Shown here piece by piece: positions 4,285 to 8,521 of a stretch of DNA of 64,000 nt. Location: NCBI GenBank assembly GCA_020353195.1, contig CP070691.1:2163344-2227343 (forward strand), read 5' to 3'. Position numbers and translations under genes: made by a program. The stretch's first letter is position 1, and each line of letters begins with the position of its first letter. The stretch is from Phycisphaerales bacterium (lineage in GTDB: Bacteria; Planctomycetota; Phycisphaerae; UBA1845). Under the pieces are notes generated by a model that was given only the letters and a program-made list of their open reading frames with translations, was not told the origin of the DNA and made no database searches.

Positions 4285-6531
4285 TCAAGCCCCCCATCCC
4301 GCAGCCATGCCGATCTGATAGATCGCCACCGCCAGCACGAACGCGAGGCCAACCGTATAGCCCACGGAGAACAGTGGCCACTTCCAGTGCCCGGACTCCC
4401 GCCAGGTCATGATCTGGACAGTGATGCACGGCGCGTAGATCATGACGAAGACCATCATGGCGAAGGCTTTGAGCGGGCTCCATGCGGCATCGGCGGCGAG
4501 TCGATCCGGCAGGGATTCGGATTCGCCCGGGTCTACGTCCCCCAGGGCATACGCGACGCCCAACGTACCGACGACTACCTCCTTCGCCGCGAACCCGCCG
4601 ATGAGCGCGATGTTGTCGCGCCAGTCGAAACCAGCCCACCGAGAAGCCCCTTCCAGGGCCGAGCCTGCTCGGCCGGCCAAACTGTGTCTGAGTTGTGCGG
4701 CCCGCCGTTTGCGCGTCAGGTCGCGTTCGGCGTCCGACGTATCAACGGTGCGCGTGGCGGCTTGTCCTTCGGTAGTGGGACTTCCCGCGCCGTCGCTGCC
4801 TGTCTGCAGAGCGGCAATTCGCGCGTCGTGGGCGGTAGCATCCAACTGGGGAAAGTACATCGCCGCCCAAAGAAGGACGCTGGTGGCAAGAATGAGCGTG
4901 CCAGCCTTCTTGACGAACATCCACGTCCGGTTCCACGTGTGCCGCCACACACCACGTAGAGTGGGCACGTGGTAAGTGGGCAGCTCCATGACGAACGGCG
5001 TTGGCTCGCCCCGGACCACGAACCGACGGATGATCCAGGCCGAGCACAACGCAAGCGCCCACGACAGGATCCACAGAAGGAACATCACTCTGGCTTGAGC
5101 CCGGGGGAAGAAGGCCGCGACGAGCATCAGGTAGACCGGCAACTTCGCGCCACAGTTCATCAGCGGAGCGACCAGCATGGTGACCAGACGATCCTCGCGA
5201 TCGGCCAGGACACGCGTGGCCATCACCCCGGGTACGGCACAGCCACCGCCGCCGAGCCCGCCGGAGACGACCATCGCGATGATGCTCTTGCCCTGCAATC
5301 CGAACACTTTCAACGCCCGGTCCAGCACGAACGCCACGCGGGCCATGTAACCGGTGTCTTCCAGCACACAGATGAACGCGAACATGACGACAATCAGGGG
5401 CACAAAACTCATGATGCCGCCGACGCCGCCGATGATTCCGTCCGTCCAGAGAGAATGGACCATGGGCGACGTGCGCTCGATGCCCATAGACGCGGTGGCC
5501 AACCACGCGAAGATCGCGTCCACCACCCCCGTAGGGCTTCGCCCGAACACCCATCGCCACTCGTCCGCGATCTTGAATACCGCCAGGAATAGTGCGTAGA
5601 CCACGCTGGCCAGAATCAACGGACCGAGCAACCGGTGACACACAACGGCGTCAATCCGGTCGGTCATGCGGCGGCGCGAGAGGTCCTGGTGAGTGACGCA
5701 CTCGCGAATGACGCCCGATGCAAAGCCGTAACGGGCCTCGGCAACGACCTCCTCGGCCAGTTCGTCGAAGTGACGCTCTATGGCATTGATGGATTCTGTG
5801 GCCGATCGCTCGATCGCCCCGGCGTTCCGGGCGTGACGGCGGACGGCGGCGACGATCTCCTCGTCCTTCTCGATAAGCTTGATCGCCACCCACCGTGGAG
5901 GATATCGCGCCGCCAGGCCGGGATCGCCCGCGACCACCGCCGTCAGGGCGTCGACCTCCTCGTCAACTCCGTGCCCGTAGGTGACTCGCCGGACCGTCAC
6001 CCGCTCAGGCTGTCGGGCCACGCCGCGGCACACGTTGACCAGGTCGGTGATTCCCCGACCACGGTTGCCGATCGTTTCCGTCACGGGCACACCCAGGATC
6101 GCCGACATCTTCTCCGCATCAATGATCAGCCCGCGCCTGCGGGCCACGTCAATCATGTTCAGGGCGATGACCAGCGGAAGTTCCATCTCCATCAACTGCG
6201 TGACGAGATACAGGTTCCGCTCAAGGTTCGAGGCGTCGACAACGTCGACGACGACGTCCGGCCTTTCGTGGATCAGGACGGTGCGGGCGACCACTTCGTC
6301 GGCGGAGTGAGCAGTCAGCGAGTAGGTCCCGGGCAGATCGACCACGGTCATGTCGCCCCCGTTGCATCGGACGCGACCTTCGCGGCGCTCGACGGTGACG
6401 CCGGGGTAATTGCCGACCTTGAGGTTGGCCCCGGTCAGCGCGTTGAACAGCGACGTCTTTCCAGAGTTGGGGTTCCCGGCAATCGCCGCACGCAACACCG
6501 CGCGGCCAGGTTGTGTCTCGATGATAGCCAT
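4285..6531 (-). CDS. feoB: Ferrous iron transport protein B
   Basis: 748 residues, normal for FeoB. The N-terminal G domain shows G1 GNPNSGKTS (residues 19-27), the switch region with NYPGVTVE, G3 DLPGTYSL and G4 NMID, followed by the helical GDI-like domain. The C-terminal half has the two Gate blocks of the permease, with motifs such as GGVGGIMSFVPLIVVMF, GCAVPG and NCGAKLPVY, and the late motif FAAKEVVVGT. It imports Fe2+ across the inner membrane. A hydrophilic insert of about 70 residues, rich in Gly, Thr and Arg, precedes the last conserved block. The start lies 10 bp after the Fur-FeoA stop with no good ribosome site, which suggests translational coupling. Confidence 0.97.
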   Translation of the reverse strand: MAIIETQPGRAVLRAAIAGNPNSGKTSLFNALTGANLKVGNYPGVTVERREGRVRCNGGDMTVVDLPGTYSLTAHSADEVVARTVLIHERPDVVVDVVDASNLERNLYLVTQLMEMELPLVIALNMIDVARRRGLIIDAEKMSAILGVPVTETIGNRGRGITDLVNVCRGVARQPERVTVRRVTYGHGVDEEVDALTAVVAGDPGLAARYPPRWVAIKLIEKDEEIVAAVRRHARNAGAIERSATESINAIERHFDELAEEVVAEARYGFASGVIRECVTHQDLSRRRMTDRIDAVVCHRLLGPLILASVVYALFLAVFKIADEWRWVFGRSPTGVVDAIFAWLATASMGIERTSPMVHSLWTDGIIGGVGGIMSFVPLIVVMFAFICVLEDTGYMARVAFVLDRALKVFGLQGKSIIAMVVSGGLGGGGCAVPGVMATRVLADREDRLVTMLVAPLMNCGAKLPVYLMLVAAFFPRAQARVMFLLWILSWALALCSAWIIRRFVVRGEPTPFVMELPTYHVPTLRGVWRHTWNRTWMFVKKAGTLILATSVLLWAAMYFPQLDATAHDARIAALQTGSDGAGSPTTEGQAATRTVDTSDAERDLTRKRRAAQLRHSLAGRAGSALEGASRWAGFDWRDNIALIGGFAAKEVVVGTLGVAYALGDVDPGESESLPDRLAADAAWSPLKAFAMMVFVMIYAPCITVQIMTWRESGHWKWPLFSVGYTVGLAFVLAVAIYQIGMAAGWGA

Positions 6532-6541
6532 GGAAGTGCTA

Positions 6542-7498
6542 TTACGGCTCGACCAGGATTCGGCTGGCCTCCTCCTTGCGGATGGCCAGGTAGTAGCCCT
6601 TCACCGTCACCTCGATCGGGTCGCCCAGCGGGGCCACACGCTCAACGAACACGGTTGCGCCCCGCGTGATCCCCATCTCCAACAGCCGATGGCGCGTCGG
6701 CCCATGCCCGCAAACCCGCACGATGCGTCCGGACCGACCCACTCCCAACCCGGTCAGCGGGACCACGCCCCGGCGCCCCGCTGCCTCGGGGAGCCGCCCC
6801 GCCCGGACGGAGACGCGCTCCATGACTCCACGGTTCACCGCGATTCGAGATTGGTCCACGGCAATGATGGCCCCTGCGTCCGAGTTGACGCACAAGACCT
6901 CAACCCGCGCCCCTTTCCTCAGCCCCATGCCGGTCAACCGCTTAAGCTCCTCCCCTTCCAGTTCCATCCCGACGACATGCAGCTCCTCACCTACGCCTGC
7001 AGACGACAGCGCGAACACTGCAGGACGACCGGAGAGGCATTGCGGGCACAGACCCCGCAATTGGGTTTGGCCCTGAAGGATTCGGAACCCGGTGGTTTGC
7101 TCGACGTGGCGAGGCCATTGCCGCATCGGCAGGTCGATTTCACTGATCCGCCCGCACCGGACGCAGATCACATGGTCGTGATGACGCAGAAGATGGACGT
7201 GCTCGTAGCGCACCGGCTGATCGTCGGTCCGGATCGCCCACACCAGCCCGTAGTGCACGAACGACTCCAGCGTCTCCGAGGCAAAGCCGGACTCCATCGG
7301 GCGGCCGGCGCGCCGAAGGTCCCCGATAATCTCTTCAACAGTGAAATGCCCCTCGCGGCGAAGGACCGCTCGCAAGAGATCAATCCTGGCGTCGGTCCGG
7401 CCATACCCGTCCTGCTCGAAGATCCGCTCGTAGTCGCGCGCGATCTTGTCGTGGATGTCAACGAGGTCGAAAGAGCTGAATCCGGGTACGGAGGGCAT
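6542..7498 (-). CDS. Fur-family regulator fused to two FeoA domains
   Basis: 318 residues in three parts. Residues 13-155 are a Fur-type repressor: winged helix (DARIDLLRAVLRREGHFTVEE), the metal-site run YEHVHLLRHHDHVICVRC with C112-x2-C115, and the second zinc pair C151-x2-C154. Residues about 160-233 and 245-316 are each an FeoA (SH3-like) domain. Both carry the typical pattern of a conserved L..MG...G..V core, for example LTGMGLRKGARVEVL and LLEMGITRGATVFVERV. The ATG at 7498 has AAGGA seven bases upstream; a longer in-frame start at 7567 would overlap the upstream gene. Stand-alone FeoA normally binds FeoB and helps Fe2+ uptake. No separate feoA is present, so this protein probably supplies that role and also senses iron. 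It lies between dtxR and feoB. Confidence 0.88.
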   Translation of the reverse strand: MPSVPGFSSFDLVDIHDKIARDYERIFEQDGYGRTDARIDLLRAVLRREGHFTVEEIIGDLRRAGRPMESGFASETLESFVHYGLVWAIRTDDQPVRYEHVHLLRHHDHVICVRCGRISEIDLPMRQWPRHVEQTTGFRILQGQTQLRGLCPQCLSGRPAVFALSSAGVGEELHVVGMELEGEELKRLTGMGLRKGARVEVLCVNSDAGAIIAVDQSRIAVNRGVMERVSVRAGRLPEAAGRRGVVPLTGLGVGRSGRIVRVCGHGPTRHRLLEMGITRGATVFVERVAPLGDPIEVTVKGYYLAIRKEEASRILVEP

Positions 7499-7559: not shown

Positions 7560-8117
7560 CTACGCATCGGGCTGCTGTTTCTCCTCGGCGCGCATCTCGC
7601 TCACGCCATCGGGATCATAGGCAGGCTGCGAATCGGGGCCGCCAGCGCGCGACGCCTTGCACTTGACCCACGCGCCCAGAAACTCCTTCGCCCGCGGATC
7701 GTCGGACTCGACGAAGTGCAGGAACCGTGCCAGCTGCCGGGAGGTGCGGGGGCCCACAAGGTGCTCGATCTTACACGTATCGACTTCCGCAGCTTCCTCC
7801 GGCACGCCGAGCACGTCACAGAAGAACTTGTGGATCAGGCGCTTCTTCCCCACAACGGCGGTGGCGATAGCCTCGCCCCTGTCCGAAAGTCGAAGGAAGC
7901 GATTCTCGTCCTCCTCGACCAACCCCTTTTCCCTGAGGGTCTTCAACGTGAGCGAGGCGCTGCCGCGGGTGATGTTCAACGTCCTGGCGACGTCCGAGAC
8001 CCGGGCGTATCCGTTACGCTCCAACAAGGTCGCGATCGCCACGATGTGGTGAGCGGCTGAGTGAGTGACCACATTCGTGTCGAACCTCTTCCAGATGTCG
8101 GGGGGTTCTGAGTCCAT
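7560..8117 (-). CDS. DtxR/MntR-family metal-dependent repressor
   Basis: 185 residues. An N-terminal winged helix (about 15-75; YARVSDVARTLNITRGSASLTLKTLREKGLV is spread over its recognition region) is followed by the dimer and metal domain with the family metal-ligand run E-x2-E-x2-D-x-C-x2-E-H (EEAAEVDTCKIEH). It would bind Fe2+ or Mn2+ and repress metal-uptake genes. The last 40 residues are a charged tail with no SH3 domain. It is the first gene of the feo operon, 61 bp before the Fur-FeoA fusion, so it most likely represses its own operon. Confidence 0.88.
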   Translation of the reverse strand: MDSEPPDIWKRFDTNVVTHSAAHHIVAIATLLERNGYARVSDVARTLNITRGSASLTLKTLREKGLVEEDENRFLRLSDRGEAIATAVVGKKRLIHKFFCDVLGVPEEAAEVDTCKIEHLVGPRTSRQLARFLHFVESDDPRAKEFLGAWVKCKASRAGGPDSQPAYDPDGVSEMRAEEKQQPDA

Positions 8118-8521
8118 GTCATCCGCATTGTATTCCCGAACTGTTGTTTAGCATACCCACCATCTGATTTTGCTGGTTGCCACGCCCTCGACACGCAATC
8201 CGGCCCTCGCTGCGATAGAACTGTAATTGCATTCTGAATAAGAGGTTAGGAGCCATTTCACCTGTGAGAATCCCACAGGGAGCCGTCCCGAGGCCGCTGC
8301 GGGCCATGACCCACGCGGCGGACCGGACCGTCCGCCCCGCCGTCCGCAACGAGCGGCTACCGCGGGCTTAGGGGAGAGCCCCGGGGCGTTCGGCGGACGC
8401 CGGCACGCCCCGGACGCGACAATCACTTCGCTCGCGTCCGCCTGGCCGGCGGGCGCAAGCCGGGGGAAAACGGTTTGCACGGCGCAGCGGCAGTGACTAG
8501 GTTCTCGGGGCGAGGGTCGTC
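8118..8521 (-). other. Divergent intergenic region upstream of the iron operon
   Basis: 404 bp between the iron operon (minus) and a methyltransferase gene (plus). The part at 8130-8260 is clearly richer in A and T than its surroundings and should hold the iron operon promoter. TATGCT and TACAAT occur there on the minus strand, but I cannot pair either with a good -35 box. I see no convincing Fur box or DtxR-type palindrome. The GC-rich part at 8280-8480 has no gene I can support. Confidence 0.4.

Follow-up and report, generated by a model that had tools for sequence, protein, structure and literature searches.

A Fur-derived protein without DNA-reading residues, fused to FeoA domains, as a possible metal-sensing subunit of the Feo iron transporter

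What is a Fur-type regulator doing in one chain with two FeoA domains, directly ahead of the gene for the ferrous iron transporter FeoB? The question is raised by an operon within the window, the 64,000-nucleotide stretch of a Phycisphaerales genome that was analysed here. The operon runs dtxR, fur-feoA-feoA, feoB on the minus strand, its genes lying 61 and 10 nt apart (Table 1). The original prediction had described a 318-residue protein with a complete Fur domain, two FeoA domains and the structural cysteine pairs CVRC (112-115) and CPQC (151-154); these coordinates are right, and Pfam, PDB and Foldseek searches bear out the domains. An alternative start at 7567 gives a longer 341-residue frame, and similarity to the orthologues starts only past residue 10 of the 318-residue form. 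The claim that the region has no stand-alone feoA holds over the whole 3.79 Mb contig (estimated completeness 78%), in which profile searches found one FUR match and two FeoA matches, all inside the fusion frame. Since the genome is estimated to be 78% complete, a further FeoA copy outside the sequenced part is possible. The neighbouring FeoB is the sole strong FeoB of this genome (215.9 bits, against 44.3 for the next match).

Table 1. Coordinates of the operon, its protein domains and the candidate control region
Feature	Coordinates	Strand	Remarks
Fur-FeoA-FeoA fusion, 318 aa	6542..7498	minus	ATG at 7498, AAGGA upstream, stop 6544-6542; intact same-genus orthologue
Fur-like domain, residues 10-156: winged helix and metal-binding/dimerisation half	7031..7471	minus	Pfam FUR, phmmer, Foldseek
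Former DNA recognition helix, residues 70-82: F72-A73-S74-E75 where the canonical form is T-V-Y-R	7253..7291	minus	
Metal motif YEHVHLLRHHDHVICVRCGRISEI, residues 98-121: E99, H107, D108, H109, E120, C112, C115	7136..7207	minus	
FeoA domain 1, about residues 162-235, divergent type	6794..7015	minus	Pfam FeoA, 46 bits (genome search)
FeoA domain 2, residues 246-318, classical type (PLGDPIEVTVKGYYLAIRKEEA)	6545..6763	minus	82 bits (genome search); Foldseek
DtxR/MntR-type regulator, no SH3 tail, operon gene 1	7560..8117	minus	Pfam Fe_dep_repr_C 3.4e-14, Fe_dep_repress 2.5e-6
FeoB ferrous iron transporter	4285..6531	minus	NCBIfam feoB 1e-164; ATG 10 nt past the fusion stop
Candidate promoter/operator GGTATGCTAAACAACAGTTCGGGAATACAAT	8127..8157	minus	TGC[CT]AAACA also found upstream of dtxR in two orthologous operons

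Both parts of the protein can be recognised by sequence and by fold. Pfam assigns FUR to residues 32-142 (1.3e-13; 51.6 bits, cut-off 23.1) and FeoA to two stretches (1.9e-34; 118 bits, above the cut-off); an NCBIfam scan of the fusion returned no model at its cut-off. The N-terminal part matches Campylobacter jejuni Fur in phmmer (8.7e-12), and PDB sequence and fold searches assign it to Fur and the C-terminal domain to FeoA. Foldseek places the Fur part among Fur/PerR/Zur structures (E about 1e-6) and the second FeoA domain among FeoA structures (rmsd 1.1-1.9 Å). Pfam, the PDB sequence search and Foldseek thus all give FeoA for the C-terminal domains, which leaves no room for a different identity. 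The fusion has no Pfam match to the FeoC family (PF09012, E up to 1), and none to the DtxR N-terminal helix-turn-helix and Fe_dep_repr domains, which are found in the separate upstream gene. AlphaFold2, run on the family alignment, gave a mean pLDDT of 83 and a pTM of 0.57, the relative placement of the domains being uncertain; it predicts the winged helix with confidence, including recognition helix 70-82.

The Fur-FeoA core recurs in other lineages; the original prediction had proposed counting lineages with the Fur-FeoA-FeoA architecture. A scan of GTDB genomes with an alignment of Fur and the first FeoA domain gave 41 loci: two in Phycisphaerae, and 39 whose records bear the names Deltaproteobacteria, Desulfobacterales/-aceae or Thermodesulfobacteriota. 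We then surveyed, under the name Desulfobacterota, the phylum to which one of the 39 belongs: 74 of its 395 genomes match, 68 with the Fur-FeoA form and six with ordinary Furs. Matches in Planctomycetota are scattered (5/392 genomes, one of them unfused), and Fur-FeoA occurs in 3/114 genomes of the window's order and 7/397 of its class. Most surveyed genomes are metagenome assemblies. The family tree would allow a single origin (SH-aLRT 82-84) without deciding the matter, being built on 143 columns and weakly resolved, with many open forks and with three canonical Furs in the same unresolved fork as the family.

The residues that read DNA bear on whether this Fur domain still works as a repressor. 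In the Fur of Magnetospirillum gryphiswaldense, whose numbering is used for family positions, readout involves Lys15, Tyr56 and Arg57; the R57A exchange abolishes DNA binding, Y56A nearly abolishes it and K15A weakens it (PMC4506495). A first alignment set 42 family members against 32 canonical Furs; a second took 65 members found in the two phylum surveys, together with 25 canonical Furs encoded at the same loci. The pooled set holds 103 distinct members and 54 canonical Furs; removal of three duplicate contig pairs left the counts substantially unchanged. Tyr56 is found in none of the 103 members and Arg57 in five, whereas all 54 canonical Furs have both. Position 15 is Lys in two members and Asp in 57, compared with Lys or Arg in 54/54 canonical Furs, and Thr54 is mostly Phe across the family. 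The window protein carries G33, S74 and E75 at the three readout positions. A gap-independent check looked for a Tyr-Arg or Tyr-Lys dipeptide no more than 6 residues from the site: every canonical Fur has one and no member does; together with a His33-Glu81 spacing of 48 in most members, this rules out misalignment as the cause of the missing residues. The mean net charge of the winged-helix, DNA-binding domain is -4.2 in the family as opposed to +3.0 in canonical Furs, and that of the recognition helix -1.1 as opposed to +2.1 (Mann-Whitney p about 3e-23, only indicative as the sequences are related). The "complete Fur domain" of the original prediction is therefore complete as a fold and not in function, because its DNA-reading residues are missing. 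Most genomes checked also contain a canonical Fur. In the window genome, strain NaphS2 and two metagenome-assembled genomes, however, the DNA-blind Fur-FeoA is the sole FUR-family match, so that these four may be without any DNA-binding Fur.

The metal ligands, by contrast, are kept. His33, Glu81, His88, Asp89 and His90 are invariant in the 103 members, Glu101 is present in 102, and both structural cysteine pairs are retained (C112/C115 and C151/C154 in the window). Regulatory site 1 (His33, Glu81, His90, Glu101) persists in the window protein as H51, E99, H109 and E120, H51 and the residues of YEHVHLLRHHDHVICVRCGRISEI forming a complete site. The second metal site is lost in the window's genus, where Glu108 has become Arg126 and His125 has become Gly143, although most of the wider family retains both ligands. 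Position 84, mostly Tyr in canonical Furs, is a near-invariant His (97/103; H102 in the window, 7193-7195) within the motif YEHxHLGxHHDH, and possibly contributes an extra metal ligand.

From these sequence comparisons we propose, with a probability of roughly one half, that the Fur-FeoA-FeoA protein serves the Feo transporter as a metal-sensing subunit, comparable to FeoC, and that transcription falls to the DtxR or Fur encoded next to it. Since the DNA-reading residues have been lost, the metal sites have been kept and FeoA has been fused, the Fur sensor probably signals iron to the pump and not to genes. The Fur-like half, derived from a Fur repressor, would still fold, dimerise and bind a regulatory metal, presumably Fe(II), as well as structural zinc, and would no longer read DNA. 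The FeoA domains would dock on FeoB, most likely on the G-protein/GDI part in the cytosol. Once the Fur half is loaded with metal, its winged-helix part might shift relative to the FeoA parts, and this shift could alter the GTPase cycle or the stability of FeoB, so that cytosolic iron would feed back quickly on import; the operon itself would be transcribed under the control of the neighbouring DtxR (window) or Fur (Desulfobacterota). The sequences themselves establish the architecture and how it recurs, the loss of the DNA-reading residues beside kept metal ligands, the operon setting and the fusion as the genome's sole source of FeoA; from these we infer dimerisation, the identity of the metal, FeoB binding, the effect on transport and the absence of DNA binding. 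The more specific version, that a DNA-blind Fur gates FeoB directly via FeoA, a member of a transcription-factor family having become a transporter subunit and a cytosolic iron sensor built into Feo, we hold at slightly less than even odds.

The link between the Fur sensor and FeoB through FeoA, which the original prediction had envisaged, gains support from the genomic neighbourhood. In 34 of the 65 surveyed members feoB lies downstream on the same strand, directly or, more usually, after a classical feoA; it is likewise downstream in the window operon, whose fusion holds the genome's only FeoA domains, and in two orthologous operons. One locus reads DtxR, Fur-FeoA, FeoB with no feoA between, another FeoA being encoded elsewhere in that genome; in a further genome Fur-FeoA holds the sole FeoA match and stands beside the sole strong FeoB. 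Classical FeoA has moreover been fused on several separate branches, and FeoC, a winged-helix protein that binds FeoB (PMC5519574), offers a precedent by analogy. Against the subunit reading, 31/65 members are not next to feoB, and the window's genus has lost the two site-2 ligands. Four loci, L042, L043, L047 and L054, were inspected in a nested clade that comprises 34 rows and has 99% support; all four are away from feoB. In three of these Desulfobacterota loci (all except L054) an MBL-fold hydrolase gene precedes Fur-FeoA, and in three (all except L047) Fur-FeoA is convergent to the hydrogenase-maturation genes hypDFBA. No common partner was found among the members not beside feoB, hyp genes adjoining one large clade and unrelated housekeeping-type genes others; such members may serve another partner.

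The main rival explanation shifts the output back to transcription. Fur-FeoA would be a metal-sensing co-regulator that acts on the adjacent regulator, by binding DtxR or by forming a heterodimer with canonical Fur, and changes its repressor activity, possibly depending on whether FeoB engages FeoA. This comes closest to the original prediction, in which FeoB would talk to a DNA-binding regulator inside the fusion. That part of the idea finds no support, given the loss of Lys15, Tyr56 and Arg57 and a net negative DNA-binding domain; with DtxR as the DNA binder, contact with a regulator is possible, because DtxR is fused to Fur-FeoA in five related genera. These genera, from another Phycisphaerae family, encode a chain of about 440 residues that consists of a DtxR helix-turn-helix, a DtxR metal domain, a DNA-blind Fur (metal ligands kept, Tyr56 absent) and FeoA, followed in 5/5 loci by feoA and feoB. 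The arrangement is that of the window operon with dtxR joined on. Judged by their sequences, these chains clearly do not need the Fur half for binding DNA, and they show that DtxR and Fur-FeoA are able to function together; the chains fit a transcriptional co-regulator as well as they fit a transporter subunit. It is mainly on their account that we keep co-regulation in consideration, as an unlikely reading that is nevertheless the strongest of the alternatives.

Separate regulator genes bear on the same question. A same-strand DtxR or canonical Fur stands just upstream in 10/65 members, all of them among the 34 with feoB downstream (canonical Fur in eight, DtxR in two), and in the window; nine further surveyed members have a divergent canonical Fur beside Fur-FeoA. 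Because such a gene is often just upstream, the DNA-binding job appears to be filled. The window DtxR is the likely true DNA-binding regulator of its operon, and binding upstream of 8118, for which the original prediction had proposed testing the fusion, is more likely the task of this DtxR. The stretch at 8127-8157 agrees with its counterpart in the same-genus orthologue at 23 of 31 positions, whereas the best among 30 shuffles reached 20. Promoter-like and containing TGCTAAACA, which is shared with two orthologous operons, it is a candidate DtxR operator, but only suggestively so. Co-regulation, on the other hand, would require a regulator partner of two unrelated folds that is often absent, while FeoA/FeoB recurs, and the DtxR fusion could be the mere joining of two adjacent operon genes.

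It is also conceivable that the protein continues to repress by binding DNA, at an altered recognition sequence, with its FeoA domains playing the part of DtxR's SH3 tail. Because the winged-helix fold is intact, the protein may have kept a residual or altered ability to bind DNA, and the high confidence of the fold prediction speaks for this view. One clade conserves the helix as FVRQCM/FVKHCM, with Arg or Lys at position 56, and DtxR regulators with SH3/FeoA tails exist (PMC4805248). We regard an altered repressor as improbable all the same, and as less probable than co-regulation: three separate DNA-contact elements have been lost together, the charge of the domain is inverted, the exposed helix positions are highly variable, and the DtxR-fused members already own a DNA-binding domain. 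Less plausible again is a metal buffer or chaperone, in which the Fur half would store or pass on Fe2+ entering via FeoB and FeoA would merely act as a tether. Retained metal ligands, lost DNA contacts and the additional conserved His84 would suit such a role, but a pure buffer has no use for an intact winged helix, and the interdomain ligand His33 is kept, as a conformational sensor needs.

That a sequencing or assembly error joined separate genes, for instance by a wrong base between residues 155 and 165, can be dismissed: the second FeoA is indeed a gene of its own in one relative, but a same-genus genome (Phycisphaerae Zod_Metabat.286) encodes the uninterrupted three-domain protein, 64% identical and in the same operon, and many distant, independent genomes carry the Fur-FeoA junction. 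The relative with a separate gene, from the same order, reads Fur-FeoA1, stop, and then a classical FeoA and FeoB, and a family relative reads DtxR-FeoA-FeoB with no Fur between. These two arrangements show the second FeoA to be the fused form of an ordinary feoA gene; it is also fused at four other loci, on separate branches of the tree. An unfused arrangement is seen in a planctomycete genome (L191:5926-6681), where a canonical Fur with TVYR is followed by one in-frame TGA, an FeoA gene and then feoB, which is how a Fur-FeoA fusion could arise.

Altogether, the preferred reading, a Fur-derived sensor subunit of Feo, touches on two open questions, the role of FeoA, whose function has been called enigmatic or little known (PMC8749426; PMC8980893), and the sensing of cytosolic iron by FeoB. 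A natural iron sensor-FeoA protein makes both testable, with metal, FeoA and FeoB variable within one construct. The family also illustrates that a FUR annotation does not imply DNA binding; the automatic label "Fur repressor" is probably wrong for Fur-FeoA, with consequences for regulon predictions in Desulfobacterota and Planctomycetota. In some Phycisphaerae, where DtxR, Fur-type sensor and FeoA form one polypeptide, iron transcription and transport would, if this is true, be tied to one molecule.

Fur, FeoA, FeoAB fusions and DtxR proteins with one or two FeoA tails are already known, and a survey of Feo systems mentions FeoA with "an additional domain", giving no details (PMC8749426); our searches of the open-access literature turned up no account of Fur-FeoA or DtxR-Fur-FeoA, and none of the missing DNA-reading residues. 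With Fur (PF01475) the window protein shares the fold, the structural cysteine pairs and the site-1 ligands H33/E81/H90/E101; it differs in its lack of Lys15, Tyr56 and Arg57, in its net negative DNA-binding domain and in the attached FeoA. Its two FeoA domains (PF04023), the second classical with the signature PLGDPIE..GY..LR..EA, lie within a 318-residue Fur-derived protein, and the genome, at its estimated 78% completeness, has no free FeoA. The FeoC of gammaproteobacterial feoABC operons is likewise a winged-helix protein encoded with feo genes; early predictions made it a regulator, and it binds FeoB and contains a metal centre (PMC5519574). The fusion has no FeoC Pfam match, however, has mononuclear sites of the Fur type where FeoC has a 4Fe-4S cluster, and is joined to FeoA. 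PgMntR of Porphyromonas gingivalis, a member of the DtxR family, also combines a metal-responsive regulator part with two FeoA domains, the second of which is essential for function (PMC4805248), but PgMntR is DtxR-type and binds DNA, while the regulator part in the window is Fur-type and DNA-blind. In the natural FeoAB fusion of Bacteroides, FeoA is reported to stabilise GTP-bound FeoB and affects the nucleotide cycle (PMC8980893); there too FeoA is covalently joined to a partner in the feo operon, that partner being FeoB itself, whereas in the window it is a Fur-derived sensor.
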